From assembly GCA_029785825.1 (NCBI GenBank), contig JAFLYY010000001.1:837374-901373 (forward strand): a stretch of 64,000 nt of DNA, in the 5' to 3' direction. Shown in pieces: positions 7,105 to 25,414 of this stretch; the stretch's first letter is position 1, and the number at the start of each line of letters is the position of its first letter. Made by a program: the position numbers and the translations under genes. This DNA comes from Nitrososphaerota archaeon (lineage in GTDB: Archaea > Thermoproteota > Nitrososphaeria > Nitrososphaerales > Gagatemarchaeaceae). A model generated the notes under the pieces. That model was not told the DNA's origin and made no database searches. It was given only the letters and a program-made list of their open reading frames with translations.

Positions 7105-7130
7105 GGGAAGGCCAGAAGGGGAGCCGCGGC

Positions 7131-8165: not shown

Positions 8166-9863
8166 CTACTCTGGCGGGATTTCCTTGTACGCCAGGGTGA
8201 TGTCGACCCCGCGCTTCTTGTTGTACCAGTAGGAGCCGCCGAAGGCGACGATCCCCAGGACCAGGCTCCCTATGATGAAGGAGAATGTGATGGAGTTGAG
8301 GGCCCAGACGCTCTGGTAGGTGAGGAACTGGTACGCCAGGTACCCGAAGACCCCCATGTTCAGCACGCCCGCCGCTCCCAGGACCCCTTTCATGTAGCCC
8401 GCCTCCTTCTTTATCGCGTGGACGACCGCCGAGAGCCCGACGATGATGAAGTATATCATCGAGGCCAGGATGGCGCCGAACAGCGGGTTGGTGCCTGCCC
8501 CGAGGTTCGAAGTCGTGTAGTTGTAAGCCGCAATCCCCACCAGGACGACTGTCACCACCAGGGAGATGCCGAAGGCGACGACGGGAGACCCGAACCGCGC
8601 GCTCACGCTCGATATCCTCGAGGGGAGGAACCTGTCGAACGACTGGGCCAGCAGATACCTGGAGATCACTATGACGCCATAGGCGAGTATGCCCAGGTTG
8701 GCCAGGATCCACCCTAGGCCGATGAACGCGGCCAGCGCAGGGTTCCCCGTGAGCCCCATCGCGAGGGTCCAGAAGTTGAACCCGACGGGCATCCCGTAGA
8801 CGTAGGCCGGGGTCGAGAAGGCGGCGTTGGTGAACGGCTGTCCGGCCGCCCAGTACATCGTCGCGATGCTCCCGACCAGGAACGAGAAGGCGAGGACGGC
8901 GGAGATGGGCACGTTCCACTTCAGGGCGCCCTTCCCCTTGATCTCACCCGCGACGGCCGGGGCGGCGTTCAGCCACGGGAAGACGAAGGCCGCTATCAGA
9001 GGAAGGAGGAAGATGGTCGGCCCCCAGCTGAAGCCGCTGACCCCGCCGGGCCCGCCGGTGTGGTTGCCTGCGACCACGTTGGCATACGTCGACCCGGGCG
9101 CCGTGGCGTTGGTGAAGTACCCGTTCCCTGTCACCCCGTTGACGTAGTTCTGGACGCCCGCCGGGCCCGCGCTGAGCATGGTCCCGATGGCGACGAACAG
9201 GGCGATTATGCCGACGATGGTCAGTATCGAGACGAGCCTGTACCCGGCCTTCGGCTTTATGACGTTGATGCCGATCAGGATGGCGAATATGAGCCCGCCG
9301 ATGAGGAACTGGAAGGCGGGGGTCGCGGGCGCGCCCGGATAGGCGCCCTGAGGCGTCGCGAGGCCCGTGTAGAAGGAGCTCGAGGGGCTGAAGAAGAGCC
9401 CCACGGTCCCGATGGCGAAGACGGTCGAAAGCGCGATGAGCGCGAGATAGGCGGTCGTCTCGCAGGTGTATCCCATGAAGGAGGCGATGCTCCCTATCGG
9501 GCCCCCGAGGTTCCTTGACACGAAGACGTAGTCCCCTCCGGCGCGCGGGTACCGCCGCGTCAGCACGGTGTAGATGACTATCTGGGGGACCGAAAGCACG
9601 AACGCGATGATGCAAAGATAGACCAGGTTCACCCCTGCGGTGCTCTGCCCCGCGAAGTACATGGGGAGGAGCCCGGAGATGCCGACGAGCCCAAGGAGCG
9701 CCCCTATCGACATGTTGCTCAGGTTCAGAGCGATGCTGTCGAAGAACGACACGTTCTTGACGAGGCCGGTGGCGTCGCGCACGAAGACCGGAGATGCGGA
9801 CGGGCTCGTGGCCTGAGCCCCCGATGCCGGCGAACCGACAGCTAGTCTCTCCTTTTCTGACAA
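8166..9863 (-). CDS. APC-superfamily amino-acid permease
   Basis: 565 residues, about 12-14 membrane helices. The N-terminal part has the APC pattern: a short cytoplasmic tail, then the helix-1 region SFFDSIALNLSNMS, and RRYPRAGGDYVFVSR, which matches the P-A-GG-Y loop between helices 2 and 3. A Gly/Asn-rich external loop (around residues 225-265) carries several N-x-S/T sites. Family knowledge suggests proton-coupled import of amino acids or related amines. It stands alone, with a TATA-like CTTAAATA about 40 bases before the ATG. Nearby peptidase, SHMT and cyclic-amide genes would fit uptake of an amino-acid-like nitrogen source. Confidence 0.85.
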   Translation of the reverse strand: MSEKERLAVGSPASGAQATSPSASPVFVRDATGLVKNVSFFDSIALNLSNMSIGALLGLVGISGLLPMYFAGQSTAGVNLVYLCIIAFVLSVPQIVIYTVLTRRYPRAGGDYVFVSRNLGGPIGSIASFMGYTCETTAYLALIALSTVFAIGTVGLFFSPSSSFYTGLATPQGAYPGAPATPAFQFLIGGLIFAILIGINVIKPKAGYRLVSILTIVGIIALFVAIGTMLSAGPAGVQNYVNGVTGNGYFTNATAPGSTYANVVAGNHTGGPGGVSGFSWGPTIFLLPLIAAFVFPWLNAAPAVAGEIKGKGALKWNVPISAVLAFSFLVGSIATMYWAAGQPFTNAAFSTPAYVYGMPVGFNFWTLAMGLTGNPALAAFIGLGWILANLGILAYGVIVISRYLLAQSFDRFLPSRISSVSARFGSPVVAFGISLVVTVVLVGIAAYNYTTSNLGAGTNPLFGAILASMIYFIIVGLSAVVHAIKKEAGYMKGVLGAAGVLNMGVFGYLAYQFLTYQSVWALNSITFSFIIGSLVLGIVAFGGSYWYNKKRGVDITLAYKEIPPE

Positions 9864-10036
9864 GGGTAGAACGTGCAGCGCACATCCCGTCGGAGTTCGT
9901 ATTTAAGCACCATTAGCGGCCCTTTTTTCCGGCGCAGAGGGTGCCGGAGGGCCCTCTGACGGCGCGCGGAGTCTCCGGCCGACGAAAAGATTGATAGAGC
10001 CAGGAGAGCGGACAGACGAGTCGGAGCAGGAATCAA

Positions 10037-10822
10037 CTGAGCGCCCCCAGCGTCCCCCTCGAGTCCCCGGAAGAAGAAGCAGCGCGGATAATCAGGGCCG
10101 CCGAGGGGAAGGGGATCACTCTGCGACTTTTGGGCGGCGTCGCCGTGTCTCTCCGTTGCCCGTCGGCCAGGAAGCCGCCGCTCGGTCGCCGCAGGGTGGA
10201 CATCGACGTGGTCGGGCGAAGGAAGGAGGCTTCGAAGATCAACCAGCTCTTCAAGGAGCTCGGCTACAAACCCAGAGAGAGGTTCAACGCGCTCCAGGTG
10301 ACCAGGCTCATATTCAACGACCTGGCGAACGCCCGGAGGGTCGACATCTTCCTTGACGTGTTCGAGATGAGCCACAAGTTCGACTTCCGGGGGCGGATGG
10401 GGCTCGATCCGGACACCCTCCCCCTCGCCGACCTCCTGTCCACGAAGCTGCAGATAGTGGAGATCAACGAGAAGGACATGAAGGACATCCTCGCGATCCT
10501 GCTCGACCACGAGATCACCCAGGACGACGCCGCCGGCGGGATCAACGGGGCCTACATCGCCAAGCTCTGCGCAGAAGACTGGGGGGTCTACAAGACGTTC
10601 ACCACGAACCTTGGGGTGGTCCTGGACCATGCCGCAGGCCTGGGGGTGGACGAAGGGCAGAAGGGGCGCGCGTCGGGCCAGGCCGACAGGCTGAGGACCA
10701 TGATAGAGCAGGCCCCGAAGGGGATGAAATGGAAGATGAGGGCGGCGGTGGGCGAGAAGAAGCGCTGGTACGAGCTCCCCGAGCGCGACCAGGAGGTCGT
10801 GGACTCGGGGGTCGGCGCCTGA
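10037..10822 (+). CDS. Nucleotidyltransferase-fold protein
   Basis: The N-terminus reads like a Pol-beta-type nucleotidyltransferase: LRLLGGVAVSLR, then RRVDIDVVG (a D-x-D pair) and later VDIFLD. The C-terminal half is helical and charged. Proteins of this kind add nucleotides to small molecules or act as toxin-like enzymes; no antitoxin partner is visible. The start is uncertain. The TTG at 10130 would cut through the GGVA motif, yet no ATG, GTG or TTG occurs in frame between the stop at 9995 and 10130. Coding character continues upstream to a CTG at 10037, used here as a tentative start. Confidence 0.6.
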   Translation: MSAPSVPLESPEEEAARIIRAAEGKGITLRLLGGVAVSLRCPSARKPPLGRRRVDIDVVGRRKEASKINQLFKELGYKPRERFNALQVTRLIFNDLANARRVDIFLDVFEMSHKFDFRGRMGLDPDTLPLADLLSTKLQIVEINEKDMKDILAILLDHEITQDDAAGGINGAYIAKLCAEDWGVYKTFTTNLGVVLDHAAGLGVDEGQKGRASGQADRLRTMIEQAPKGMKWKMRAAVGEKKRWYELPERDQEVVDSGVGA

Positions 10823-10886: not shown

Positions 10887-11510
10887 TTGCGCATCCTCCT
10901 GGCGGGGTTCGAGCCCTGGAAGGGGTCGGTCAACCCGGCTGGCGCCGTCGCCAAGAGCCTCGACGGGATGACCATAGAGGGGGGACGGGTCGTCGGCGTG
11001 GAGGTCCCGGAGGACTTCTACGGGCTCCCGCGCATCACCCGCTCCCTCGTCAAGGAGCACAGGCCAGACGCCGTGATATCGCTCGGATGGGACTACACCC
11101 GCGCCGTCAAGGTGGAGAACGTGGCGGTGAACATGATGTTCGCTGTCTTCGGCGACCAGCTGGTCCCCGACAACCGCGGGCGGTCCCCCCGCGGCGTCCC
11201 CATATCCAAGCGCGGGCCGGTGGCGCTCAGAAGCACGCTGCCGGTCAGGTCGATCGTCTCTGACCTGTCGGCCGCAGGCATACCTGCCGTCGAGTCCTAC
11301 GACGCGGGCACCCACGGCTGCAACACCATGATGTACTCGTTCCTGATGGCCGTCAGGAAGGAGCGCCACGGCGTGTCGGGCCACATACACCTGCCGCCGA
11401 CCGAAGGGGTGGACGCGCGCTTCCCCGTCGAAAAGATGGAGCTGGATACCGAGAGGAAGGCCATAGAGATAGCCGTCGGCTCGTGCGCGAGGAGCCTCCG
11501 CAGGAGGTAG
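10887..11510 (+). CDS. Pyroglutamyl peptidase (C15 family)
   Basis: 207 residues, the normal size of pyrrolidone-carboxylate peptidase. It would remove N-terminal pyroglutamate from peptides or act on a related lactam. The triad can be placed: Glu77 (VENVAVN), Cys145 (AGTHGCN) and His168 (GHIHLPP), close to the positions in characterised bacterial enzymes. The start is TTG, with a TATA box at 10854. It is followed after 10 bases by the SHMT-like gene, so both are probably one transcript. A Cys-less paralogue lies at 6487-7104. Confidence 0.85.
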   Translation: MRILLAGFEPWKGSVNPAGAVAKSLDGMTIEGGRVVGVEVPEDFYGLPRITRSLVKEHRPDAVISLGWDYTRAVKVENVAVNMMFAVFGDQLVPDNRGRSPRGVPISKRGPVALRSTLPVRSIVSDLSAAGIPAVESYDAGTHGCNTMMYSFLMAVRKERHGVSGHIHLPPTEGVDARFPVEKMELDTERKAIEIAVGSCARSLRRR

Positions 11511-12699: not shown

Positions 12700-12812
12700 C
12701 ATCCGGGAAGATAGGCCTGAAGTCTGCCAGAGCTCGACGCCTCCGCCTGAGCGCCTTCGGCTCTCGTCGCGTCATCGTCGTCCTAGCAGGTGGAACGGCG
12801 CCGGCGCTCGTG

Positions 12813-14174
12813 TCAGGCGTTCTCTTCTTGTGAAGCCACGGTCACGCTGGAGTAGTGCCCTGTCTCTCTGCCGTACTGCAGCCATATGACGGCCCCTACC
12901 ACTCCGACTACCCACAAGAGCACGTTCAGGTACGCGAACCCCGTTATGTCCAGATAGGCCAGAGCCAGCGTGGCAGGGACGTTGAGGGTGTAGGCTATGA
13001 TCCTTACCGCGCCCGTGTACAGGGCTCTCCTGCCGGTGGGCCAGATCTCTCCCTTCAGCGTGTTAAGCGCGGCATATCCGAGCGCGAGGAACACGTTGAA
13101 GACGGCCACGTACCCCCAGAACAGGTTCACGGAAGTGGACCACTGGGAGATGGTGCCGGTTATGAGCAGGGCCATCACCAAAGTGCCTATGTAGAATCCG
13201 AATATGTTCCACCTCCGACTTATCCTGTCAACGTAGAACGCGAAGATGATGGTTACGATAGCCTCGATTGTGTCCGACACGAAGATGATCTGGGAGGTGA
13301 TTGAAGAGAAGTAGACGGGCCCCATGCTGAACACGAACAGGCCGAAGCCGATTACGTTGGCTATCGTCATGCACGTTATGGCAACCAGCCTGAGCGATAT
13401 CGACGGAGACTTCAGCGGCGCGACCAGCCGCGCGGTTGGAGCAGCGGCCGTCCCGGCGCCGCCAGCGTCGGCCGCCACGTTCGAGGAGCGTGCAGACGAC
13501 GGACTGGTCCCATAGTACTTCTGGGCAGTCGCTCCTGCGTCGCTTTTCCTCCCTTTGGCTTCCAGCCACCTGATGGACTCGGGCATCTTGTATCTGCTGA
13601 CCAGCAGGATGACCAGCAGCGGCACCGCTGACGAGGCGACGAGCTCCCTCTGGAAAGTGACCTGACTGGAGATGCTCAGGAAGTCGATGGCGGCGAATAT
13701 GGCGGGGCCGATGGACACGAAAGAGTAGACCAGGTACAGCACCTTCGCGCGGATACGCGTCGGGAACATCTCGGGGATGGCCGCGATCACCGTGTTCGTC
13801 TCTCCTCCCCCCGCGATCTGTGAGAGGGCGAGGAACACCAGGACGAGATAATAGTTGAAGGAGAGGAGTATGCCTACCGCCGACAGAAAGTAGAGCGCCA
13901 TCGTGACAAAGAACGCGGTCTTCCTGCCGATCCGGTCGGCCAGCACCCCCATGAAGAGTATTCCGACTATGAAGAAGACGCCCGGCCACACCAGCAGGAG
14001 ATACTTGAAGACGGTGTTGGTGACCGCGATCGAGTACCATCCGGTGGCCAGATACGCCCAGCTGTAGAAGGAGGCCTGCATCATTACGCCGATGGCGAAC
14101 GAGACGAAGGTCCAGGTATTCGCCTTCGTCCATTTGGACTCCTCGATGACTTCATGACTTATGTCAAAAGTCAA
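12813..14174 (-). CDS. MFS transporter (sugar/organic-acid type)
   Basis: 453 residues, about 12 helices. The MFS loop signature GVLADRIGRK lies after helix 2, and PEMFPTRIRAK matches the sugar-porter-like motif after helix 4. The long central loop (about residues 215-255) is Ala/Ser-rich. A TATA box (ATATAAAT on the minus strand, 14197-14206) is about 25 bases before the ATG. It neighbours a set of acyl-CoA enzymes, so uptake of an organic or aromatic acid fits. Substrate is inferred from context only. Confidence 0.85.
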   Translation of the reverse strand: MTFDISHEVIEESKWTKANTWTFVSFAIGVMMQASFYSWAYLATGWYSIAVTNTVFKYLLLVWPGVFFIVGILFMGVLADRIGRKTAFFVTMALYFLSAVGILLSFNYYLVLVFLALSQIAGGGETNTVIAAIPEMFPTRIRAKVLYLVYSFVSIGPAIFAAIDFLSISSQVTFQRELVASSAVPLLVILLVSRYKMPESIRWLEAKGRKSDAGATAQKYYGTSPSSARSSNVAADAGGAGTAAAPTARLVAPLKSPSISLRLVAITCMTIANVIGFGLFVFSMGPVYFSSITSQIIFVSDTIEAIVTIIFAFYVDRISRRWNIFGFYIGTLVMALLITGTISQWSTSVNLFWGYVAVFNVFLALGYAALNTLKGEIWPTGRRALYTGAVRIIAYTLNVPATLALAYLDITGFAYLNVLLWVVGVVGAVIWLQYGRETGHYSSVTVASQEENA

Positions 14175-14405
14175 CTGCCGCGAAATCGGTTATGGCCATT
14201 TATATTCGTTAGGTGGGCATGGACCTTCCGGGACTGTCATCCGGGTAGCGCCCGCGCGGAACCCGGGCCCATCCAAGCCAGCCGGCCGGCCCAGGCACCC
14301 GTGACTCCCTACGTCGTTGACGCGCCTCCTCAGCGGCGAGGCGGCGTCCGCGCCTGAGGAGAGGGCGAACTCCGCGCCGGAGGGCCCAGGGCGCGGTCAC
14401 TGCCG
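14175..14405. other. Non-coding gap
   Basis: This gap holds the TATA region of the MFS gene at 14197-14206. No gene, tRNA or clear repeat was seen in the rest. Confidence 0.4.
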
Positions 14406-14762
14406 CTAAGCGTCGGCCCTTGCGACCGGGTACTTTCGCCCTTTCAACTCGGCGAAAGCTACGCGGACGTCCGTCCCGACGTCGGCCTTCCCGCTCTCCA
14501 GTACATTGCAGTATATCCTGAACCCGTCGAACTCCACGATCCCGTAGGTCGTCCTTCCACCGTCTTTCTTCTGGATCCGGGTCAGAGCGAATATCTTGCC
14601 CCTTCCATCGCTCTCCTTGACCTCCAGGGAGGTGGAAGAGCACCTAGGACAGAGCGTCCTGGGATAGTAGAACCTGTGCTTGCACCCGCTGCACTCGAGG
14701 TAGGGGAGCCTGTCCGCGTCAAGTTTCTCATGATACGCCCTCCTCAGCTCGTCCAACTTCAA
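14406..14762 (-). CDS. DUF35-type zinc-ribbon/OB-fold protein
   Basis: 118 residues: an N-terminal helix, a rubredoxin-like zinc ribbon (CSGC and CPRC pairs around residues 24-41) and an OB fold. This is the DUF35/ChsH2 architecture. Such proteins form obligate partners of SCP2-type thiolases or of Ltp2-type aldolases and supply part of the acyl-CoA site. Its start overlaps the stop of the thiolase-like gene by 4 bases (ATGA-type), so the two are translated together. Confidence 0.88.
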   Translation of the reverse strand: MKLDELRRAYHEKLDADRLPYLECSGCKHRFYYPRTLCPRCSSTSLEVKESDGRGKIFALTRIQKKDGGRTTYGIVEFDGFRIYCNVLESGKADVGTDVRVAFAELKGRKYPVARADA

Positions 14763-15916
14763 TTCTTCTCGCCCAGGACCAGGGTGACCGAGTGGCTCCT
14801 GCTCCAGCCACCGATCCCGTTGAGATACACCGAACCGACGCCAGAGACTTGGTGCCCCTCCGCCATGCCGTTGAGCTGCAGCAGAGCCTCCTCGAGGAGG
14901 ACGCCGCCGCTCATGAAACCTGGCTGCCCCATGTTCAGGCTCCCGCCGCCCGTGTTCAGCGGCACGTCGCCCTTGTATGTCAGGTCGTGTTTCTCGACGA
15001 ACTCTCCGCCTTTCCCCTTCGCTGCGAGCCTGACGTCTTCGATCTGCATCAGCGTGGTGATGGTGAAGGAGTCGTAGAGCTCGTAGGCGTCGGCCCTTCC
15101 GGCTTCGAACGAAGCTCGTCGGGAGCTCTCGACGGCCGGGGTCGACACGATGTCCTCCTGCTCAGGGGGGAGCTCGTGCCAATGCCCTTCGCCGTACCCG
15201 AGGATGTCGAGCGTCCTCAGCCGCGTCTGCTTCTTGCTCACTATGAATGCGTGGAAGCCGTCTACCGGGTAGACTATCTCCAGAAGGTGGAGCGGCTCCG
15301 CGACCATAGGGGATGCGATCACCTGCTCGGGCGTAAGATCGTCTTTGAACAGAGCCCTGGCGTTGCGCTTGGCGTTGAGCCTCTGCTGCGCCGCGATCGT
15401 CGCCCTTTGCTCGTCGGTCGTGCCGAACAGCCTGGAGTGCCTGAATGCGGCCAACGCGTAGTCCGAGACCGGGTTGAGGTCGTCGTAGACACGGAGGAAC
15501 TCGTCGAACGGCGAAATCGCCACGTCCGGGTAAGCCCTGTCGATGGAGTCCACGGTGACCGCCTTGGCCCTCACGTCTGACGCCTTCCCGCCGATGAGGC
15601 AGAGGACGCTTTCGGCCTCCCCCGCCCTGATGGCCTTGTAGGCCCTGTGGACCGAAGCGAGCGCGGACGCCCCTCCAAAATCGAGGGTGTCGACGTATCT
15701 GGCCTTCAACCCCAGATATTGCCTGACCTGGTTGGTGAACATGAGCAGGTTGGCCTTCCCGTCGAAGATCCCCGGCAGCTCCGTCGTCACCAGGCCGTCG
15801 AGCTGCTTCATTTCCATCCCTGCCATTTCCAGGGCCTCGGCGACGGCCTCGCTCAGCAGGTCGAAGGCGCTGCCGTCGTACTTCTTGTAGATCCTCCCGG
15901 CGAAACCGGCGAACAA
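14759..15916 (-). CDS. SCP2-thiolase-fold protein without thiolase Cys/His (likely acyl-CoA retro-aldolase)
   Basis: About 385 residues with thiolase-fold landmarks, but the nucleophile loop reads DFGGASALASVH with no cysteine. The usual GHP histidine motif is GQP in NMGQPG. The last thiolase cysteine region is NGIGGW. Family knowledge: thiolase homologues that lost these residues and pair with DUF35 (Ltp2 type) cleave beta-hydroxyacyl-CoA by retro-aldol reaction. The TTG at 15916 is preferred: the shared TATA region lies at 15949-15957, which overlaps the longer GTG start at 15949. Confidence 0.8.
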   Translation of the reverse strand: MFAGFAGRIYKKYDGSAFDLLSEAVAEALEMAGMEMKQLDGLVTTELPGIFDGKANLLMFTNQVRQYLGLKARYVDTLDFGGASALASVHRAYKAIRAGEAESVLCLIGGKASDVRAKAVTVDSIDRAYPDVAISPFDEFLRVYDDLNPVSDYALAAFRHSRLFGTTDEQRATIAAQQRLNAKRNARALFKDDLTPEQVIASPMVAEPLHLLEIVYPVDGFHAFIVSKKQTRLRTLDILGYGEGHWHELPPEQEDIVSTPAVESSRRASFEAGRADAYELYDSFTITTLMQIEDVRLAAKGKGGEFVEKHDLTYKGDVPLNTGGGSLNMGQPGFMSGGVLLEEALLQLNGMAEGHQVSGVGSVYLNGIGGWSRSHSVTLVLGEKN

Positions 15917-15948
15917 CCTCTGCCCTCCGACGGCGGGTCTGGCCACCA

Positions 15949-15957
15949 CTTATATGA
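15949..15957. promoter_or_regulatory. Shared divergent TATA element (CTTATATGA)
   Basis: On the plus strand it is 23-31 bases before the TTG at 15980 of the MBL gene. On the minus strand it reads TCATATAAG and is 33-41 bases before TTG 15916 of the thiolase-like gene. It therefore helps place both starts. Confidence 0.45.
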
Positions 15958-15979
15958 CTCTCAGGAGGGTCGTGACCGA

Positions 15980-16732
15980 TTGCCGCCCCCGCAGGGAGTC
16001 TGGTGCCTGAAGGTGGGAGAGATCAATCTGTGGAAAGCCGAGCTGACCTACGGGGTCGACTTCGACGTCCGGGTGGCGGCCCCGATCTTCGTGTTCCTGA
16101 TAAGGTCCGAGCGGGAGCTGACGTTGGTGGACGCTGGCTTCAGGCCCGGAGCCGCTCGCGCTGACAACTCGGCCAAGGGGACCATACAGCTCCTTCGGCG
16201 CGCCCTGAAGAGAACGTCTGTCGAACCCGGCGACGTCAAGAACCTGGTCCTCACTCACCTTCATACAGATCACTCGTCTTTCATCGGGGAGTTCAAGCGG
16301 GCGAGGGTCTTCGTACAGTCGAGGGAGGTCGAGTTCGCAAGGAACCCCCTCCCGACTCAGGCGCCGTTCTTTGACGCCGGCGCACTGGACGCCCTGCAGA
16401 AGTCCGACGTCGAACTGGTCGAGGGAGACAAGGAGATCTCCGGCGGCGTTCGACTGGTTCACACCCCCGGACACACCCCGGGCTCCCAGTCGGTCGCGGT
16501 CAGGCTGGGCAGGTCTGGCTTCGTCATCTGCGGCGACACCATACCGATGTATCACAACTGGCACCCGTCGGACAGGCGTTTCGGCACCCCCGTTGCGCTT
16601 CCCAGAATACCCCCGGCCATCCACAGCGACCTCGGGGACTGGTTCCGAAGCTGTCGAAAGATTGAAAGCCTTTCTGGGACTTTGATTCCTAGCCACGACC
16701 CGCTTCTCGCGGACGGCACCGTTTTCCGCTAG
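15980..16732 (+). CDS. Metallo-beta-lactamase-fold hydrolase (lactonase-like)
   Basis: 250 residues with the zinc-site motifs HLHTDH (H93, H95, D97, H98), HTPGHTPGS, CGDTIP and PSHDP. The tail HDP pattern resembles N-acyl-homoserine-lactonase-like or quorum-lactonase family members, which hydrolyse esters or lactones. The enclosing gene set suggests hydrolysis of a lactone or thioester during acyl-CoA breakdown. The TTG start at 15980 lies 23-31 bases after a TATA box. The open frame continues upstream, but that part overlaps the divergent gene and is not coding in character. The stop overlaps the stop of the enoyl-CoA hydratase gene. Confidence 0.8.
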   Translation: MPPPQGVWCLKVGEINLWKAELTYGVDFDVRVAAPIFVFLIRSERELTLVDAGFRPGAARADNSAKGTIQLLRRALKRTSVEPGDVKNLVLTHLHTDHSSFIGEFKRARVFVQSREVEFARNPLPTQAPFFDAGALDALQKSDVELVEGDKEISGGVRLVHTPGHTPGSQSVAVRLGRSGFVICGDTIPMYHNWHPSDRRFGTPVALPRIPPAIHSDLGDWFRSCRKIESLSGTLIPSHDPLLADGTVFR

Positions 16733-17571
16733 CGGGCTGGGCGCTCTTCCCGCTCGCCGCCTTCAATCTCTCGGAAGGGCCTGTCCCTCAGCTTCAGGAA
16801 CTCCTTGAAGCCGACCTTCTCGGCCAGCTTCATCCACTCCGCCGAGGCCCCTGAGCCCAGCAGCAGCGCTTCCTGGCGGGCGGCGAAATCCATAGGGAGT
16901 CCGAACCTTTCCGCTCCGTACCAATGATTCACCATCGCCTTGTTCATCCGGAGAGCTCGCAGGTCTATGTGCCCCAGCTTCCTGGCGAGCTTCGACACCT
17001 CCCTGTCAAGAGCGTCGTCATCCACCGCCCTGTTTATCAGGCCGATCGACTCCGCTTTCTCGGCGTCGACCAGGTCGCCTGTGAGGAGGAGCTCCATCGC
17101 CAGGTTCCTGCGCACGTTGGACGGGACCAGCAGCCTTGCGACCCCCTCGGCCTGCCTTATCTCGGGAGTTCCGAACCTGCAACTGCGGGCGCTCAGGATG
17201 ATATCGCATGCATTGGCGAGGAAGAACCCGTATCCCAAGGCGTAGCCTCTGGTGGCCGCGATCGTCGGCTTAGGATAGGACAGGATCATCTTGAAGAGCC
17301 TGTTCTCGCTGAGGAAGAGCTTCTTCCACGCGCTCGTCGGCTTGACTTCGGTCGACGGATTCCCCAGGTCCGCCCCAGCGGAGAAAGCCCTCCCTTCCCC
17401 CTTCAGCACCACGGCGTGGACCCTGTCGTCCGCAACGCAGGCGGCAAGATGCTCGCGCGTCTTGGCGCGCATCTCGTCGTTGAACGCGTTCAGCTTGTCC
17501 GGCCGGTTGAACGTTATCTCTGCGTAGCCATCGTGGACGTTCAGCAGGACTACGGAGTTCGCGCTTGGCAT
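16729..17571 (-). CDS. Enoyl-CoA hydratase/isomerase (crotonase family)
   Basis: 280 residues. It shows NRPDKLNAF near the N-terminus, the oxyanion-hole segments GRAFSAGADL and RGYALGYGF, and the acidic residue in FGTPEIRQAEG; the second catalytic glutamate of classic hydratases is not obvious. The C-terminus is Arg/Glu-rich. Role: hydration or isomerisation of an enoyl-CoA, giving the beta-hydroxyacyl-CoA that the nearby aldolase-like pair could cleave. It is convergent with the MBL gene and downstream of the CoA-transferase gene on the same strand (67-base gap). Confidence 0.88.
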   Translation of the reverse strand: MPSANSVVLLNVHDGYAEITFNRPDKLNAFNDEMRAKTREHLAACVADDRVHAVVLKGEGRAFSAGADLGNPSTEVKPTSAWKKLFLSENRLFKMILSYPKPTIAATRGYALGYGFFLANACDIILSARSCRFGTPEIRQAEGVARLLVPSNVRRNLAMELLLTGDLVDAEKAESIGLINRAVDDDALDREVSKLARKLGHIDLRALRMNKAMVNHWYGAERFGLPMDFAARQEALLLGSGASAEWMKLAEKVGFKEFLKLRDRPFREIEGGEREERPAR

Positions 17572-17638
17572 GCTGCCGGGGTTTTGAACTGGCCCTCGGG
17601 GTGGAATAAGGGTTTGCGCCTGACTGACGCGGCCGGGT

Positions 17639-18829
17639 CTATGAGATGACGCCTTTGCCGCGAAGCGTCAGCAGCTGGTCTTTGGTGTACCCGAGGGCGC
17701 CGAGAACCTCGTCGGTTTGCTCACCCAACGCCGGAGGTCTCCTGGTGACCCGGGCGGGAGTCTCTGAGAATTTCATCGGCAGATTGAGCATCTTGAGCTT
17801 CCCCACGACCTCGTCCTGGAACTCCACTATGCCGCCCCTGTAGATGAGCTGCGGGTCCTGGAGGGCTTCGGCCACCGTCTTCACGGCCGCGCAGGGGACA
17901 TCGACCTTCTCGAGTTCCTGGACCCAGTACTCCCTGGGCTTCCGGCTCAGAACGCCCTGCAGAGCCTGATGCAGCTCCTGCCAGTTGCTCGCCCTGGCCG
18001 GCCGGGTCGAGAACTTGGGGTTTGTCACTATCTCCTTCAGCTCGGGTATGCTCGCCGCCCGCTGAAAGACGCCGTCGTCGGGCGCCTCGATCACGAAGAA
18101 GCGACCGGACGCATCGGAGTAGACGCCCATGAAGCCGACCTGCCTGGCCCTCGTGAGGTTGTCGAAATTCGAGTCCATTCCCTGCAGCACGGGTATGGCC
18201 ATGTACTGGAGCAGGAAGGCGGCCGACTCCAACAGCGACACCTCCACGAACTGGCCGACCCCCCGCTTCTCTCGGGCGAACAGGGCCGCCAGGATGGCCT
18301 GCGTGGCGACCATGGCGGTGGTCAGGTCAGCCAGCCCGAGCGGCGCCGTCGGCGGCGCCCGACCGTCGCTGTAGAGGCTCAGGAGCCCGCTCAGCGCCTG
18401 TGCCACCAGGTCGTAGGAAGGCCTCTTCGAGGACGGCCCGTCGTGGCCATACCCCGAGATCGAGCAGTAGACTATCATTCTGTTGACCTTAGAGATGTCC
18501 CCGTAGCCGACGCCGAGCCTGTCACAGACCCCCGGCCTCATGTTCTCCACGAAGACGTCAGCCGTTTCGCTCAGCTTCTTCAGTATCGAGACGCCGTCCG
18601 GCGTCTTGAGGTTCAGAACAACGCTCTTCTTGCTCCGGTTCGAGCCCATGAAATACGTGCTCATCCCGTGATAGACCGGGGTCGCGGCGCGTTCAGGGGA
18701 GCCCACTCCCGGGGGCTCGATCTTGATCACCTCCGCCCCCATGTCGCCGAGGATCATGGTGGAGAACGGACCCGCCACGTGCCTCGTCATGTCGACTATC
18801 CTCACGCCTTTAAGTGGGCCGTCACTCAT
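17639..18829 (-). CDS. CaiB/BaiF family (class III) CoA-transferase
   Basis: 396 residues, normal size. N-terminal GVRIVDMTRHVAGPF, then GAEVIKIEPPG, NRSKKSV, FVENMRPG and the catalytic aspartate in GLADLTTAM (D168) match the family fully. It moves CoA between carboxylic acids and would activate the imported acid. It shares a short AT-rich upstream region (GATTTATCTT, 18861-18870) with the divergent alcohol dehydrogenase gene, which points to common regulation of the acyl-CoA module. Confidence 0.92.
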   Translation of the reverse strand: MSDGPLKGVRIVDMTRHVAGPFSTMILGDMGAEVIKIEPPGVGSPERAATPVYHGMSTYFMGSNRSKKSVVLNLKTPDGVSILKKLSETADVFVENMRPGVCDRLGVGYGDISKVNRMIVYCSISGYGHDGPSSKRPSYDLVAQALSGLLSLYSDGRAPPTAPLGLADLTTAMVATQAILAALFAREKRGVGQFVEVSLLESAAFLLQYMAIPVLQGMDSNFDNLTRARQVGFMGVYSDASGRFFVIEAPDDGVFQRAASIPELKEIVTNPKFSTRPARASNWQELHQALQGVLSRKPREYWVQELEKVDVPCAAVKTVAEALQDPQLIYRGGIVEFQDEVVGKLKMLNLPMKFSETPARVTRRPPALGEQTDEVLGALGYTKDQLLTLRGKGVIS

Positions 18830-18860
18830 TCGAGCTAGAACCGCTCCGCGGAAGAGCTCG

Positions 18861-18870
18861 GATTTATCTT
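18861..18870. promoter_or_regulatory. Divergent TATA region between CoA-transferase and alcohol dehydrogenase
   Basis: GATTTATCTT is 28-37 bases before the TTG at 18898. Read on the other strand (AAGATAAATC), it is 32-41 bases before the ATG at 18829. Confidence 0.45.
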
Positions 18871-18897
18871 TGACTTGCGTCGAGGGCCTGTTTCTAG

Positions 18898-19941
18898 TTG
18901 AAGGCAGCCAGGCTGCATGAGTTCGGGAAACCGCTCTTGTGGGACGACGTCCCCATGCCTGAACTGCGAACCGGGTCCGACGTGGTTGTGAGGATAGCGG
19001 CCGCGGGACTTTGCCACACCGATCTTTCAGTGATGGACAGAGCCCTGCCAGACATCAAGGGGCGCTTTCCCCCGCTGCCGTTCATACTGGGACATGAGAA
19101 CGCGGGCTACGTCCACGCGGTCGGCGATTCTGTCACCGGACTGAAGGTGGGAGACCCGGTGCTCGTCTACGGAGCCTGGGGGTGCGGCACCTGCGTGTTT
19201 TGCAGGAGAGGGGAGGAGCAGAGGTGCCCCGTGAGCCCGCTCACCCCCGGGATCAGCCCCGAATACCAGGGCGGCTTTGCCGAGTTCATGTACGTGCCGT
19301 CGTCCAGATATCTGCTGAAGGTCGAAGGCAACATGGAGGACCTCGCGCCTCTCACCGACGCGGGTCTGACTTCTTACAGGGCGGCGAAGAGGGTCCGAAG
19401 CCACCTCTCGCCCGGCTCATTCAGCCTCGTGATCGGCGCGGGCGGACTGGGACTCTACGCCCTGCAATATCTGCGGCTCTTCGGGTCAAGCACTGTGATC
19501 GCTGCCGACATAGCGGATGACAGACTCGCGCTGGCTGAGAGCTTCGGTGCGAGCGTCGCCTTGAACCTGAGCAAGGGTGATCCCGCAGAAAGGGTCGCCT
19601 CGGCGACCGGAGGCAGAGGAGTCAAGTCGGTCTTGGACTTCGTGGGGACAAGCGGGACCGCCGCTCTCGCGATGCGGGTGTTGTCCGCCGACGGCATCTA
19701 CGTAGATGTCGGTCTTGGCGGCGGCACGCTGAGCGTCCCTTTGATCGACCTGATCCACTCGGAGTCCCTGATCACAGGGAGCATATGGGGCACCTATGAG
19801 GAACTCGCCGAAGCCTACGAGCTGCTGAAGTCCGGCAAGGTCAAGAGCACCGTGCAGAAGTTCAGGCTTTCCGACATCAACAGCGCGATAGCACAGATGC
19901 GGCGGGGAGAGCTGCTGGGCCGAGCCGTGTTGACCAGTTGA
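18898..19941 (+). CDS. Zinc-dependent alcohol dehydrogenase (MDR family)
   Basis: 347 residues. Catalytic zinc residues C39/H40 (GLCHTD) and GHEN (H66, E67) are present. The structural-zinc lobe is C96-C99-C102-C110. The Rossmann motif GAGGLG follows near residue 181, with an acidic residue (AADIADD) that favours NAD over NADP. It interconverts an alcohol with an aldehyde or ketone, a fitting partner for the carbonyl product of a retro-aldol cleavage. The start is TTG with a TATA about 31 bases upstream. Confidence 0.92.
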   Translation: MKAARLHEFGKPLLWDDVPMPELRTGSDVVVRIAAAGLCHTDLSVMDRALPDIKGRFPPLPFILGHENAGYVHAVGDSVTGLKVGDPVLVYGAWGCGTCVFCRRGEEQRCPVSPLTPGISPEYQGGFAEFMYVPSSRYLLKVEGNMEDLAPLTDAGLTSYRAAKRVRSHLSPGSFSLVIGAGGLGLYALQYLRLFGSSTVIAADIADDRLALAESFGASVALNLSKGDPAERVASATGGRGVKSVLDFVGTSGTAALAMRVLSADGIYVDVGLGGGTLSVPLIDLIHSESLITGSIWGTYEELAEAYELLKSGKVKSTVQKFRLSDINSAIAQMRRGELLGRAVLTS

Positions 19942-20123
19942 CTGCGGCCCCTGGCATCAGAGGTTCAGCGCCGTCGCCTCCTGACCTCTCCCCTCGGCAG
20001 ACTTCTCTACGACGCCCTCCGTAGGCGCCGGGGCTGGGTCAGAAAGAGCGTCGGGACCGCGCCGTGCGAGCCGTCCCCGGTCGAGACATGCGAAAGTCTC
20101 CTCTCTCGGCTTTTCGAAGTCAC

Positions 20124-20132
20124 CTTATATGA
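20124..20132 (+). promoter_or_regulatory. TATA box of the parB-like gene
   Basis: CTTATATGA, 25-33 bases before the GTG at 20157, which supports that start and a leaderless mRNA. The rest of the 215-base gap after the dehydrogenase gene shows no gene. Confidence 0.5.
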
Positions 20133-20156
20133 GGAGCGCCGGCATCCTGAGCCGAC

Positions 20157-21020
20157 GTGGCCCGACACGGGGCAGGGGAGTTCAGCTACGTTACTACCTA
20201 CGAGGAGCTCGAGATGTCATTGCTCGTGTCCAGCCCCTTCCAGCCAAGGGAGGGGATAGGAGACATCGCCGAACTGGTGGAGTCGATCAAGGCGTCAGGG
20301 CTCATAGAGCCGATCGTCGTCCGGCCCAAGGCGAAGTACTTCGAGATAATCGCAGGGAACAGGCGGTATCACGCGTGCAGGAAACTGAACTTTCGCCGAA
20401 TACCGGCGATAGTGGTGGAGATGTCAGACAAGGAAGCTTACGAAGCCGCCCTCGCCGAAAACCTTCAGCGCAAGACCCTGGACCCGATCGAGGAGGCCGA
20501 GTCGTTCAGAAGATACTGTGAGGACTATGGATGGGGCAGCCAGTCCGAGCTCGCGCGCCGCCTAGGCAAGTCGCAGGCCTACGTCGCCCACAGGCTGCGG
20601 CTGCTTTCTCTTCCGGAGAGCTTCAAGAGCGTGATCAGGGACGGCACCCTGAGCGCCAGTACGGCTGAAGAGATCAGTCGGCTGAAGGACTCGGAGCGCC
20701 AGAGAGAGATTCTCGAATCCGCCGTCAGGCACGAGATAACCCGGGACGATATCCGCGGGGCCGCAGCCTCCCAACCCGCAAGTCGAAACGAGACCTCGGC
20801 GCCCGACTGGCTCCAGACAACGCGACGGAATTGGAAAGACTCGGACGCGCTTATCATCGACAGGGCGATCCTTTCGCTCAAGGTGTCCATGGTCCGGATC
20901 GATTCGCTGCACGAGAGGGCGAGGAGCGACGCGTTGAAGAAGATCCTTCTGAGCAAGCGCATAGCCGTTCACCAACTGATTGACGAGCTGCTGAGCTACA
21001 AGAGGACCCGGGTCGCGTAG
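20157..21020 (+). CDS. Orphan ParB-like DNA-binding protein
   Basis: 287 residues. The ParB/Srx nuclease-like N-domain is typical: SPFQPRE (residues 26-32), LVESIKASGLIEPIVVRP, FEIIAGNRRYHA (CTPase box GNRRYxA) and AENLQRKTLDPIEEA. A KorB-like HTH follows (SELARRLGKSQAYVAHRLRL). The C-terminal third is charged and helical. Chromosome- or plasmid-partition ParBs normally sit next to parA; no ParA or SMC gene is in the window. An 18-bp near-palindrome 127 bases downstream (21147-21164) could be its site. It could alternatively be a Noc-like or transcriptional ParB. Confidence 0.85.
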   Translation: MARHGAGEFSYVTTYEELEMSLLVSSPFQPREGIGDIAELVESIKASGLIEPIVVRPKAKYFEIIAGNRRYHACRKLNFRRIPAIVVEMSDKEAYEAALAENLQRKTLDPIEEAESFRRYCEDYGWGSQSELARRLGKSQAYVAHRLRLLSLPESFKSVIRDGTLSASTAEEISRLKDSERQREILESAVRHEITRDDIRGAAASQPASRNETSAPDWLQTTRRNWKDSDALIIDRAILSLKVSMVRIDSLHERARSDALKKILLSKRIAVHQLIDELLSYKRTRVA

Positions 21021-21373
21021 CATCACCGTCGCAGGGCCACGGGTGGTCCGCCGCGCTTCCAGATGCCTGAGGTCGCGCCCTCCTCGGTCCAGATTTCCGG
21101 GGCCCGCGGCTCGCGAATGCCCTCGGACCTGCTTCAGGTCGGGCCCTTAGTAGCATGCCACTAAATGGCGACCGCGCCGGGTCAGGCCGGGGCCTCGTCC
21201 GCGCTTGCCTTCTTGACGCAGGAGTGACAAGAGGCATATCAACTGCAGGACCGTCTAGCAGCGAATTAGCGCAGCTATGTGAATCTCTGCCGGTCAGCGC
21301 CCGGAGCAGCCTCGGCCGCATCGCCGCTCGCCATAAATCAAGGTCATGACGGAGCAACGAGGGTCGAACTGGC
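21021..21373. other. 353-base intergenic region with palindromes
   Basis: No gene seen. It contains a perfect hairpin-forming GACCTG-CTT-CAGGTC (21126-21140), a GGGCCC, an 18-bp near-palindrome (21147-21164) and a CATAAATC TATA-like element about 40 bases before the TrmB gene. Confidence 0.5.
21147..21164. repeat. 18-bp near-perfect palindrome, candidate ParB or TrmB site
   Basis: The sequence TTAGTAGCATGCCACTAA has two 9-base arms that pair except for one position. It lies 127 bases after the parB-like stop and 210 bases before the TrmB-like start. Either protein could bind it. Confidence 0.5.
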
Positions 21374-22183
21374 GTGACGCAAAGCCAAGTTGTTGACGAC
21401 CTGATATCGTTCGGCCTTTCTCCGCTTCAGGCGGAGGCGTACGTTGCGCTCGCCCGGAGCGGCAAAGAGACCTCCACGTCGATGGCTCAGACGATCGGGA
21501 TATCTGTGTCAGACGCTCGCAGGGTCCTCCACTCGCTGAGGAGGCTAGGGCTGGTCGAGGTGGAGCTTGGCCGGAACGACTACTTCTTGGCCGTCGCGCC
21601 GAAGAAGGCGCTACGGACCCTTCTCGACGCAAAAGAGACCGAGCTTCAGAACCTGAAGAGAGAGAGCGAAGCCCTCACCAGGCTGCTCGAGGACTCCAAG
21701 CGCAACAGGGGCACCGCGGATGAGGAGAGCTTCTTCAGGTTGGTATCGGGGAGCCTGGTCTTCAACCGGTGGGCTGACGCGATCCGTCGGGCAAAGACCA
21801 GGGTGATTAAGGTTGTCCCAGCCTACACTCTGAGTACGCACTTCAGAGAACTCTCGGACGCAGAGTCCGCCGCCGCGCGGAGAGTCGACGTGACGATCAT
21901 ATCAGAGATAACTGAGCAGAATCTCAGAACCGCTGAACAGTACTACCGCAAGGTCCCGTTCTTGCATGCGGACGGGTTGACGCCTTCGTTCAGATACCTG
22001 ATCATAGACCAGTCAGAGGTATTCATGGGAGGGACGCCGCCGACCGAGTCCATCGAAGACCACGTCGTGATCTGGACCAACAACAGGGTGTTCGTCGACG
22101 CGTGCTCGACGCACTTCGAGTCGATCATGAGAGCAGCGCTTGACGGAGCGAAACGGATAGAGGTTCTAAAGCACGTTTCCTAG
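21374..22183 (+). CDS. TrmB-family transcriptional regulator
   Basis: 269 residues: an N-terminal winged HTH (GLSPLQAEAYVALARSG, then VSDARRVLHSLRRLGLV), a coiled-coil helix (about 88-115), and a C-terminal phospholipase-D-like ligand domain. TrmB proteins repress or activate transport and catabolic operons in response to small molecules. It lies just before, and in the same direction as, the xanthine-dehydrogenase-like operon (55-base gap with its own TATA), so it may control that operon. The start is GTG. Confidence 0.85.
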   Translation: MTQSQVVDDLISFGLSPLQAEAYVALARSGKETSTSMAQTIGISVSDARRVLHSLRRLGLVEVELGRNDYFLAVAPKKALRTLLDAKETELQNLKRESEALTRLLEDSKRNRGTADEESFFRLVSGSLVFNRWADAIRRAKTRVIKVVPAYTLSTHFRELSDAESAAARRVDVTIISEITEQNLRTAEQYYRKVPFLHADGLTPSFRYLIIDQSEVFMGGTPPTESIEDHVVIWTNNRVFVDACSTHFESIMRAALDGAKRIEVLKHVS

Positions 22184-22205
22184 ATTACACGATAAGATCC
22201 AGTAG

Positions 22206-22238: not shown

Positions 22239-24524
22239 TTGGCGGTTCAAGAGCTCAAAGCCCCCCGCCGTCCGCCCGTGGCCACCACCCGGCTCGACGC
22301 GCTGGAGAAAGCCGCAGGCGAGACGAAGTACACGGGTGACAACGTCCACGAGGAAGCTCTCTACGTCAGGGTGGTCAGGTCCCCGCACCCCCACGCCCTG
22401 ATAAGGCACATCGACGGCTCGGCGGCGGAGAAGGTCCAGGGGGTCGTCAGGGTCGTGACGGCCAGGGACGTCCCCGGCTCGAACTACATCGGGTATGTGG
22501 TCCCGGACAGGCCCCTGCTCTGCCACGACAAGGTCAGGTTCGTGGGGGACTCGGTCGCGCTCGTGGTGGCCGACGCCCCGGAGTCTGCAGAGCTCGGGGT
22601 GAGGGAGGTGAAGGTCGGATACGAGGAGCTCCCGGCCGTCCTCGACCCCCGCGAAGCGCTCCGTGAAGGCGCTCCGGCGATACACCCCGGGGGGAACCTG
22701 ACCGCGAGGCAGCTGGTCAGGAGGGGGGACGCGGCGAAGGCCCTCGCTGAGGCGGACTTCGTGCTGCGCGGGACCTACAGCACGCCGGTCCAGGAGCAGG
22801 CGTACCTCGAGACGGAGGCGGCCTTGGCCTATCCGCGCAGCAAAGGGGTCACGGTCCTGGGGTCCATGCAGAACCCGTTCATGGTGAAGAAGGCCGTCGC
22901 GACAGTGCTGGGGGGCGCGGCGCCCGACGTCCGCGTCATACAGGCGCCCACCGGGGGCGGGTTCGGAGGGAAGCAGGACGCACCTGACGAGGTCTGCTCG
23001 ATGGCGGCCCTCGGCGCCTGGCTGACCAAGAAGCCCGTCTTCCTGGCGTTCTCCAGGAAGGAGTCGACGGCGTTCCATCCCAAGCGCCACCCGATGGTCT
23101 TCGAGAGGGAGATGGGTGTCACTTCCGGCGGCAAGATAACGGCGGTCAGGGCCAGCATACTCTCCGACGGCGGAGCCTACGCCTCGCTGAGCGAACGCGT
23201 GCTCTTCGTGGCCACCACCGTGGCGGCCGGCCCGTATGAGGTGCCTAACGTGCACGTGGACGGCTCGGTGGTCTACACCAACAACGTCCCCATGGGCGCC
23301 TTCCGAGGGTTCGGGAAGCCGCAGGCGGTCTTCGCGGCGGAGCTGCAGATGGACGAAGCGGCGGAGAAGCTCCGGATGGACCCTGCCGAGTTCAGGCTCC
23401 GCAACATCCTCAGGAGGGGGTCGGCCACGCCCACGGGGCAGACCCTGACTGGCGGGGTCGGGCTGGAGGAGTGCCTAGTTCAGGCGAGGGCCGCGTCCGG
23501 GTGGGAGAGAAGGCGCACGGCCGGCCGGGGGACGGGCGCGAAGAGGCGCGGGGTCGGGATGGCTTGCGCGATCCACCCTGAGGGGCTCACGGGGGAGGCC
23601 GACGCGGCGACGGCGTCGGTCGAGGTCGCGTCCGACGGGCGCGTGATAGTGAAGACGAGCCTGACCGAGTACGGGCAGGGGATCCACACCGGCTTCGTCC
23701 GCATAGTCTCGAAGGCGCTCGGGACGAGCCCGGAGAGGGTGTCGATCCAGAACCCCGACACGGACCTGGTCCCCGACACCGGTCCCACCGTGGCTTCCCG
23801 GAGCACTGTCTTCGGAGGGAAGGCGGTCCTCCTCGCGGCGGAGAAGATCAGGGAGACGCTGTCGAAGGCCGCGTCCGAGATGCTCTCCTCCTCCGCCGGG
23901 GAACTTGTCTTCGAGGACGACGTAGTCAGGGGCCGGGGCAGAGAAGCGACGTTCGACGACGTCGTCTCCGAGTGTTTCAGGAGAGGGATGAAGCTGAGCG
24001 AAGAAGGGAGGGTGGTGAAGCCGATGCCGTTCTGGGACAAGGAAGCCGGCCGCGGAGACCTGGCGCCGTCCTACTGCTTCGCCGTCCACGTGGCCGAGGT
24101 CGAGGTGGACGTGGAGACGGGGAAGGTGGACGTGGTGAACTACACCGCGGCCCACGAGTCCGGGAAGGTCATAACGCGGGACCAGTTCGAGAGCCAGGTC
24201 ATCGGAGGGGTGGCGCAGGGGCTGGGCTACGCCCTGATGGAGGAGCTCATCCTGAAAGACGGGGTGATAAGGAACAAGACGTTCCTCGACTACCACATCC
24301 CCACCGCGGCCGACGTCCCCGACGTCAAGGTCCTGGTGGTCGAGGAGCCCGACGAGTTCGGTCCGTTCGGGGCGAAGGGGATCGGAGAGGGGGGGCTCGA
24401 GCCCGTGGCCGGGGCGGTCGCCAACGCGCTTTACGACGCGCTCGGGTTCCCTATCCGCAGATTCCCGTTCACCCCCGAGAGAGTCTCGGACGCCATCGAG
24501 GAGGCGGGGAGGCGGCGGGGATGA
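22239..24524 (+). CDS. Xanthine dehydrogenase-like molybdopterin subunit
   Basis: 761 residues, large subunit of a molybdenum hydroxylase. Motifs: TGGGFGGKQ (cofactor loop), GAFRGFGKPQ (the AFRGFG arginine motif typical of xanthine dehydrogenases), EYGQGIHTG, and the catalytic base Glu717 in AKGIGEGG. The enzyme hydroxylates a purine or another N-heterocycle next to nitrogen. The ATGA overlap with the FAD-subunit gene and the following adenine deaminase make a purine substrate (hypoxanthine/xanthine) likely. The start is TTG after a clear TATA box. Confidence 0.88.
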   Translation: MAVQELKAPRRPPVATTRLDALEKAAGETKYTGDNVHEEALYVRVVRSPHPHALIRHIDGSAAEKVQGVVRVVTARDVPGSNYIGYVVPDRPLLCHDKVRFVGDSVALVVADAPESAELGVREVKVGYEELPAVLDPREALREGAPAIHPGGNLTARQLVRRGDAAKALAEADFVLRGTYSTPVQEQAYLETEAALAYPRSKGVTVLGSMQNPFMVKKAVATVLGGAAPDVRVIQAPTGGGFGGKQDAPDEVCSMAALGAWLTKKPVFLAFSRKESTAFHPKRHPMVFEREMGVTSGGKITAVRASILSDGGAYASLSERVLFVATTVAAGPYEVPNVHVDGSVVYTNNVPMGAFRGFGKPQAVFAAELQMDEAAEKLRMDPAEFRLRNILRRGSATPTGQTLTGGVGLEECLVQARAASGWERRRTAGRGTGAKRRGVGMACAIHPEGLTGEADAATASVEVASDGRVIVKTSLTEYGQGIHTGFVRIVSKALGTSPERVSIQNPDTDLVPDTGPTVASRSTVFGGKAVLLAAEKIRETLSKAASEMLSSSAGELVFEDDVVRGRGREATFDDVVSECFRRGMKLSEEGRVVKPMPFWDKEAGRGDLAPSYCFAVHVAEVEVDVETGKVDVVNYTAAHESGKVITRDQFESQVIGGVAQGLGYALMEELILKDGVIRNKTFLDYHIPTAADVPDVKVLVVEEPDEFGPFGAKGIGEGGLEPVAGAVANALYDALGFPIRRFPFTPERVSDAIEEAGRRRG

Positions 24525-25414
24525 GGCCGTTCCAGTACCTGGCCCCCTTCCCGAGCTTCCGGTACCTGGCGCCGAAGAGCGTCGCAGAGCTGCTGGAAGC
24601 CCTGGACGGCGAGGGGAAGGGGTCGGTTGTCATAGCGGGCGGGACAGACGCCATGATAGCCCTGAAGGAGCGGACGACGGCGCCGGAGACGGTCGTCGAC
24701 ATCAGCCGCCTCGGCAGGGAGCTGGGAGGGATACGGAAGGACGGGGAGACGCTGCGCATCGGCGCCCTGACGACGTTCGCGGAGATAGAGGCCAGCCCGC
24801 TGGTCGACAGGTTCGCGACGGCGCTGAAGACAGCCGCGGCAAACGTGGGGACCCTGCAGATCAGGAACCTGGCCACGGTCGGCGGCAACCTCGCCACGGC
24901 CTCCCCGGCAGGAGACTCGGCCCCCCCTCTGATAGCCCTGGGGGCGCGCGTGAAGCTCTTGAGCAGGTCGGGCGAGAGGACGATCCCGGTCGAGGCCTTC
25001 TTCACCGGGGTCAAGAAGAACGCCCTCCACGGAGGGGAGATAGCGGCCGAGGTCGTCGTGCCGGCGCGGGAGGGGGTCTCGAGCGCCTGGGCGAGGGCGG
25101 CCGTAAGGAACGAGAACGCGCTGTCCACCGTCTCGGTGGCGGTCTCGGCGTCCATCGCGGACGGAAGGTTCGGGGAGAGCAGGGTGGCGCTGGGGGCCGT
25201 CGCGCCCACCCCCGTGCTCGCGGAAAGGAGCTCCAAGCTGATGACGGAGAGCGGTGCCACGGCGGAGAAGGCCGAGGAGGTCGCGGCGCTCGCCGCGGAA
25301 GAGGCAAGGCCGATAACCGACATAAGGGCCAGCGCCGCCTACAGGAAGCGCCTGGTCTTCGTGCTCACCAGGAGGCTCATCGACGGGCTCCTCTCGGAGG
25401 CGGGCGCCGCATGA
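24521..25414 (+). CDS. Xanthine dehydrogenase-like FAD subunit
   Basis: 297 residues, FAD-binding (CoxM/XdhB type). Motifs: VIAGGTDAMI and NLATVGGNLATASPAGDSAPPL (flavin contacts), then a CO-dehydrogenase-flavoprotein C-terminal domain ending in AYRKRL. It passes electrons from the iron-sulphur subunit to NAD or another acceptor. The ATG at 24521 overlaps the large-subunit stop (ATGA), and its own stop overlaps the start of the 2Fe-2S subunit, so the three genes are one translational unit. Confidence 0.9.
   Translation: MRPFQYLAPFPSFRYLAPKSVAELLEALDGEGKGSVVIAGGTDAMIALKERTTAPETVVDISRLGRELGGIRKDGETLRIGALTTFAEIEASPLVDRFATALKTAAANVGTLQIRNLATVGGNLATASPAGDSAPPLIALGARVKLLSRSGERTIPVEAFFTGVKKNALHGGEIAAEVVVPAREGVSSAWARAAVRNENALSTVSVAVSASIADGRFGESRVALGAVAPTPVLAERSSKLMTESGATAEKAEEVAALAAEEARPITDIRASAAYRKRLVFVLTRRLIDGLLSEAGAA

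Follow-up and report, generated by a model that had tools for sequence, protein, structure and literature searches.

Gene content of the locus

The stretch analysed here, called the window, is 64,000 nt of the 1.97 Mb genome of a Nitrososphaerota archaeon (GenBank assembly GCA_029785825.1, contig JAFLYY010000001.1, positions 837,374 to 901,373; all coordinates below are those of the window). It carries a conserved gene block that includes two overlapping genes (14406-15949), one for a DUF35 protein and one for a thiolase-like protein without the catalytic Cys and His of thiolases. Comparison of their sequences leads us to propose, with moderate confidence, that this pair forms a DUF35-supported thiolase-fold acyl-CoA carbon-carbon lyase acting as a retro-aldolase. 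The features of the block are as follows.

12804..22184, strand not specified: whole conserved block, from DNA alignments to relatives
12813..14174, minus: major facilitator superfamily (MFS) transporter; Pfam MFS_1/Sugar_tr, with weak likeness to aromatic acid/H+ symporters (NCBIfam below cut-off)
14406..14762, minus: DUF35 protein of the Trf type, 118 aa; Pfam zf-ChsH2, rubredoxin-like zinc ribbon and OB fold
14759..15949, minus: thiolase-like protein without Cys/His, proposed acyl-CoA retro-aldolase, 396 aa; Pfam Thiolase_N and Thiolase_C_1
about 15980..16732, plus: metallo-beta-lactamase-fold (MBL) hydrolase; Lactamase_B, HLHTDH kept, start proposed
16729..17571, minus: crotonase-fold protein; Pfam ECH_1, GYGFFLA and TPEI
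17639..18829, minus: CoA-transferase of family III (CaiB/BaiF); CoA_transf_3, E 2.1e-108
18898..19941, plus: zinc-dependent alcohol dehydrogenase (ADH); Pfam ADH_N and ADH_zinc_N
20157..21020, plus: ParB/Noc-like protein; Pfam and NCBIfam, conserved in L013, L014, L015 and L040
21374..22183, plus: TrmB-family regulator; Pfam, conserved in the same four loci

All genes claimed by a first-pass annotation of this DNA were present, in frame, within the window, and the transporter, CoA-transferase, MBL and ADH genes around the pair were confirmed in their places. The conserved block exceeds the span of that annotation, since it reaches 22184 and adds the ParB-like and TrmB-like genes. The claimed pairing with DUF35 also held, as the TTG start of the DUF35 gene overlaps the stop of the thiolase-like gene by 4 nt. 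The CoA_transf_3 domain is full length (366/366 positions), and the metal motifs of ADH and MBL are kept, judged by eye. The MBL gene is oriented divergently to the thiolase-like gene, and its lactonase-like NCBIfam matches were below cut-off. A single operon was rejected because the MBL and ADH genes lie on the opposite strand, so the block consists of several transcription units; the TrmB-like protein is likely its regulator. Two open reading frames (ORFs), 14209-14643 and 15950-16696, both on the minus strand, were taken as shadow frames.

The entire block is copied in three relatives, G006 (L015), G008 (L014) and G009 (L013/L040). When 61 genomes were searched, an orthologue with >90% identity was present in 4 of the 31 genus members, namely these three and the window genome. 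For nine block genes, dN/dS of the window copy against L014 and L040 was 0.07-0.20, indicating purifying selection, and the thiolase-like gene gave 0.10 against both. Because it is kept in three other genomes and is under purifying selection, the thiolase-like/DUF35 block is not a product of chance. A weak match over residues 23-66 on a Halanaerobiales contig (L016), found in the genome-contig scan that otherwise gave three true relatives, was taken as chance.

The thiolase-like protein belongs to a clade sister to Sal

In an alignment with DUF35-linked thiolases, Gly93 stands in place of the thiolase Cys, Tyr292-Asp-Ser294-Phe (YDSF) in place of HDCF, and Gln342 in place of the His of GHP, which confirmed the claim of the first-pass annotation that this thiolase homologue has neither catalytic Cys nor His. 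The closest solved structure was 9MYR, CtSal (E 4.7e-49). According to the parts of its report covered here, CtSal uses Tyr302 as base, Cys304 as acid and Gly89 for a backbone contact, and has Gly at the thiolase Cys position; its authors reason that thiolysis is impossible (PMC12329534).

Trees were built with one row per distinct protein. In the tree of 75 proteins, the window protein fell into a clade of 31 members, from the window genus, families f20 and f22, Sulfolobaceae and f45, which was sister to the Sal group with 97/89 support, and an earlier tree of 52 proteins gave the same relation at 93/82. Deeper splits in the larger tree were weaker (85/69). The clade was separate from Ltp2, which formed its own group (97/95), and from the HD thiolase group (100/99). 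All rows with a YDx motif in the motif tables were without Cys at the nucleophile position.

As regards the active site, Gly93, Tyr164, Tyr292 and Gln342, corresponding to Gly89, Tyr165, Tyr302 and Gln352 of CtSal, were invariant in 31/31 clade members. Among other CtSal sites, Arg216 was kept in 14/31 and Gly391 in 27/31. His233 was present in 25/25 members with Ser294 and in 1/6 with Ala294, a count that ignores relatedness.

Two further groups were observed in the same comparison. One is an archaeal clade with YDD[YF]/GQ, which consists of thiolase-like proteins that are paired with DUF35 and have no nucleophilic Cys (L005-L011 and L022-L029, 15 rows). The other is a bacterial and haloarchaeal YD[SA]F/HP clade, plasmid-borne with acyl-CoA genes (L048-L053, L055, L057, L058 and L060), which is Cys-less yet keeps the His of GHP and has 4u4e as a solved member.

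Related gene sets and mobility of the block

The seven-gene set was found again in G107, a genome of another family of the same class, spread over contigs C33 and C88. On C88 the ADH, thiolase-like and DUF35 genes are consecutive, with the ADH gene (60% identical) directly upstream of the thiolase-like gene, while C33 carries genes for a short-chain dehydrogenase/reductase (SDR), the crotonase (42%), MBL (32%), MFS transporter (70%) and CoA-transferase (48-49%). In two f20 genomes (G063 and G084), the pair is accompanied by a FabG-like SDR and an acyl-CoA ligase. In G078 an aldehyde dehydrogenase gene lies directly upstream of the pair; in G087 such a gene is convergent with the DUF35 gene. 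Among 11 long Sulfolobaceae/f45 loci, 6 had a FabG-like SDR directly upstream, with 55-69% identity to the f20 SDR, and several Sulfolobaceae/f45 loci had an acyl-CoA ligase near the pair.

In the sister species G009, the block occupies a different chromosomal place with other flanking genes. Eight block genes had a lower GC content at third codon positions (GC3) than 44 genes of the window outside the block (Mann-Whitney p 1.2e-5); this comparison left out the MBL gene and, from the 48 non-block genes, the four of least length. We infer that the block was acquired horizontally as a unit. In G001, G010 and G017 the genes that flank the G009 copy are separated by 0.9-2.1 kb; the distance is 3.2 kb in G000 and about 5 kb in G014. 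The flanks of the window copy have too few orthologues in relatives to trace an empty site.

Relative to the window copy, L014 has two additional stretches (5158-6263 and 9433-10287 of that locus), and its extra ~1 kb sits between the CoA-transferase and crotonase genes. One ORF there (5692-6021) resembles a transposase remnant by eye only, and two further ORFs in the extra stretches had no Pfam match. Right after the block, the window carries molybdenum hydroxylase genes of the xanthine dehydrogenase type with a 2Fe-2S subunit (22239-25905), whose orthologues were found in few genus members. Two genes of the pyroglutamyl peptidase (C15) family lie at 6487-7266 and 10887-11510, about 4 kb apart.

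Proposed retro-aldol chemistry and its alternatives

In the proposed reaction, Tyr292 would deprotonate the beta-hydroxyl group of an acyl-CoA while the Gly93 backbone would hold that hydroxyl oxygen, after which the C-C bond would break. The resulting CoA enolate would be protonated by a donor other than Cys, perhaps via His233 and Ser294. The transporter and CoA-transferase could supply the acyl-CoA, and ADH could take the resulting aldehyde or ketone. Descent from the YDx branch suggests this chemistry by analogy, as both tested YDx groups, Ltp2 and Sal, are retro-aldolases. The carbonyl-handling neighbours also suggest it, with ADH in the window genus and G107, and aldehyde dehydrogenase in G078 and G087.

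Several results weighed against this proposal. The position of the Sal acid Cys304 is Ser in 25/31 clade members and Ala in 6/31, and in CtSal the change of Cys304 to Ser, Ala or His made activity undetectable, according to the portions of PMC12329534 covered. Sal-like chemistry here would therefore need another proton donor, and it is this replacement of Cys304 that counts most against a retro-aldolase. In addition, Gln161 of CtSal is replaced by Pro in 31/31 members, and Gln347 by Ser in 30/31 (Ser337 in the window protein) and Ala in 1/31. An AlphaFold2 model built from four near-identical sequences reached a pLDDT of 32 and was not used. So the retro-aldolase assignment of the first-pass annotation stands as far as the loss of nucleophile and His, the DUF35 partner and the YDx-branch descent go, and is weakened by a Ser at the Cys304 site that was inactive when made in CtSal.

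The crotonase is a further point against it. The window protein has GYGFFLA at the position of GGGCELA in other hydratases. Its first catalytic Glu is thus Phe, while the second is kept (TPEI), and the G107 crotonase shows the same loss (GMGFYLA, then SEI). We take the missing and the kept residue to correspond to the roles of Glu144 and Glu164. From its sequence the crotonase may not hydrate, although it may still do so, as there are crotonases that have just the second Glu and function as hydratase-lyases. Of the enoyl-CoA hydratase that had been annotated, a crotonase-fold gene is present and the first of two catalytic Glu is missing. The claim of a complete side-chain-shortening route was not supported, given this crotonase and the FabG-like reductase and acyl-CoA ligase beside the orthologues elsewhere; the order of its steps is a guess.

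The FabG-like SDR next to the pair in Sulfolobaceae and f20 could equally indicate beta-keto chemistry. The pair might then act differently on acyl-CoAs with a beta-keto or beta-hydroxy group, by synthetic aldol addition, hydrolytic retro-Claisen cleavage or decarboxylation, alongside that reductase. The 6/11 long Sulfolobaceae/f45 loci and the f20 loci L037 and L039 with an upstream SDR, several with an acyl-CoA ligase nearby, speak for it. However, the window block has no SDR, and the SDR of G107 shares its contig with crotonase, MBL, MFS and CoA-transferase genes. We regard this alternative as unlikely. As contig C33 of G107 holds an SDR together with block-type genes, the SDR and aldolase roles may coexist.

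It is quite improbable that the thiolase-like protein is a pseudoenzyme that merely holds DUF35 and other enzymes. Such a scaffold would fit the loss of the Cys, of both His and of the acid Cys of Sal, and PhlA of phlABC is described, in the part of PMC2954200 covered, as an inactive member of the thiolase superfamily. On the other hand, Tyr292, Tyr164, Gly93 and Gln342 do not vary within the clade, purifying selection is strong, and, in contrast to phlABC, the window block does not encode a further thiolase that would be active. It is very improbable that the protein is a true thiolase using a different nucleophile, such as Ser95 or Ser294: Ser95, adjacent to the Cys site, does not vary among the 8 closest orthologues, but Sal, an aldolase, has Ser there too, Ser294 is Ala in 6/31, and the acyl-shuttling His is lost.

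The DUF35 partner is of the Trf type

The window DUF35 protein has a CxxC..CxxC zinc ribbon, and its OB fold was seen only via the alignment to 6HTJ, the Pfam OB model being unmatched. Its best solved relative was this same 6HTJ, Trf (Sso2509) of Saccharolobus solfataricus (E 2.7e-37, about 46% identical), and in the DUF35 tree the partners from the window, f20, f22 and Sulfolobaceae formed one group with Trf (27 rows, 99/96). One protein of genome G729 is identical to 112 residues of 6HTJ, and its start agrees with the coding portion of the primer sequence in print. G729 was taken as S. solfataricus, and for this reason family f42 as Sulfolobaceae.

In G729, the end of a thiolase-like gene and the ATG of trf share 4 nt (ATGA), and the two genes of the window are arranged in the same manner. 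The product of the thiolase-like gene of G729 belongs to the window clade and is 54% identical to the window protein. The surroundings include genes for a TetR regulator, an acyl-CoA ligase, an acyl-CoA dehydrogenase, a 3-hydroxyacyl-CoA dehydrogenase/hydratase fusion and an MBL protein; judged by these predicted products, the trf locus is an acyl-CoA cluster. Across 31 Sulfolobaceae genomes, 38 thiolase-like genes of the window clade were found in 21 genomes, together with 37 Trf-type DUF35 matches (E 2.5e-18 or better). Of these, 35/37 begin -4 to +20 nt behind a thiolase-like gene, compared with 0/9 of the weaker DUF35 matches. Genomes without a thiolase-like gene at the cut-off were also without a strong Trf-type match in 9/10 cases, and the exception, G742, is 87% complete and in 190 contigs. 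The co-occurrence gave a Fisher p of 5e-7, which ignores relatedness. In a comparison of 23 loci, a DUF35 match was absent at one (L063).

Trf is likely a subunit of such a lyase, because the DUF35 subunit of the window pair is Trf-type, and on these genomic data we lean towards a lyase subunit as its primary role. Trf has been reported to copurify with aIF2, to bind aIF2-gamma and to free aIF2 from RNA, and its deletion slows outgrowth, as far as PMC3936769 was covered. In that case, freeing aIF2 from mRNA may be an additional function through which the resumption of translation after starvation is linked to acyl-CoA supply, or it may follow indirectly from the loss of the enzyme subunit.

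Other reports, each cited for the parts covered, bear on this link. In a 2019 paper Trf was monomeric and bound RNA at low micromolar concentration (PMC6996347). In an aIF5A pull-down Trf gave 83 peptides vs 14 in the mock, and ORF 2508 is missing from the table that includes Trf (PMC6105217). These points weigh against Trf acting in a lyase. By numbering, the thiolase-like gene before trf may be SSO2508. An RNA named '2508sh' served in Trf assays (PMC3936769), and the size of SSO2514, 73 kDa (PMC6105217), agrees with that of the 663-aa fusion, whose gene is the third ORF after trf.

Trf has been likened to the DUF35 scaffolds of thiolase-type complexes, with no gene neighbour of trf named in the portions of PMC6996347 covered. 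The words thiolase, operon and acetyl are absent from the main text of PMC3936769 as far as covered, and in its covered part PMC2954200 states a general DUF35-thiolase association without naming SSO2509. No earlier statement of a coupling between Trf and a thiolase-like gene was found in the open-licence literature. In a separate observation, which is a second hint of a link between CoA and aIF2, the aIF2-alpha kinase homologue of S. solfataricus is activated by oxidised CoA (covered part of PMC5217372).

Comparison with known systems

The clade described here is new and well supported, and with its own active-site set it joins the thiolase-fold lyases without Cys that have been described in steroid degradation, so that a clade of this lyase type is now placed in archaea. 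The enzyme kind is already known; the tie to Trf is unexpected, and it puts the function of Trf in question, as almost all copies of the Trf gene in Sulfolobaceae are coupled to a lyase-type gene, and almost all genomes without the lyase-type gene also lack that for Trf.

Among related systems, the benzoylsuccinyl-CoA thiolase BbsAB (7PXP) and the archaeal acetoacetyl-CoA thiolase (6ESQ) also pair a thiolase fold with DUF35. BbsB falls on the HDxF/GHP thiolase branch of the tree, and 6ESQ was assigned there from its PDB name only. The ipfDE pair of ibuprofen degraders, in which we take IpfE to be a DUF35 protein, was likened to the window pair by description only. Its thiolase-like gene is held to release propionyl-CoA, in the part of PMC9195938 covered. 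No plasmid with ipfD was recognised among 60 of 576 records listed.

The steroid aldolase TcLtp2-ChsH2 DUF35 (6OK1) shares the Cys-less thiolase fold, the base Tyr and the DUF35 partner. The label Ltp2-type given by the first-pass annotation was not borne out, as Ltp2 has YDHF and a second catalytic Tyr344 where the window protein has YDSF and Gln342, and the two lie in separate tree groups. Trf resembles the window DUF35 protein both in tree position and in its 4-nt overlap with a window-clade gene, whereas its reported role is the release of aIF2 from mRNA 5' ends and nothing in the window block suggests a role in translation.

The bile-acid side-chain aldolase CtSal-CtShy DUF35 (9MYR) differs from the window pair in that Cys304, Gln347 and Gln161 are replaced in the window protein, and in its setting, as no steroid genes were seen in the window block. 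The CtShy DUF35 is MaoC-fused with a C3H1 ligand set, whereas that of the window is not fused and has four Cys. The two systems are alike in the Gly at the Cys site, the YDxY/F base Tyr, the GQ at the GHP position and the DUF35 partner.

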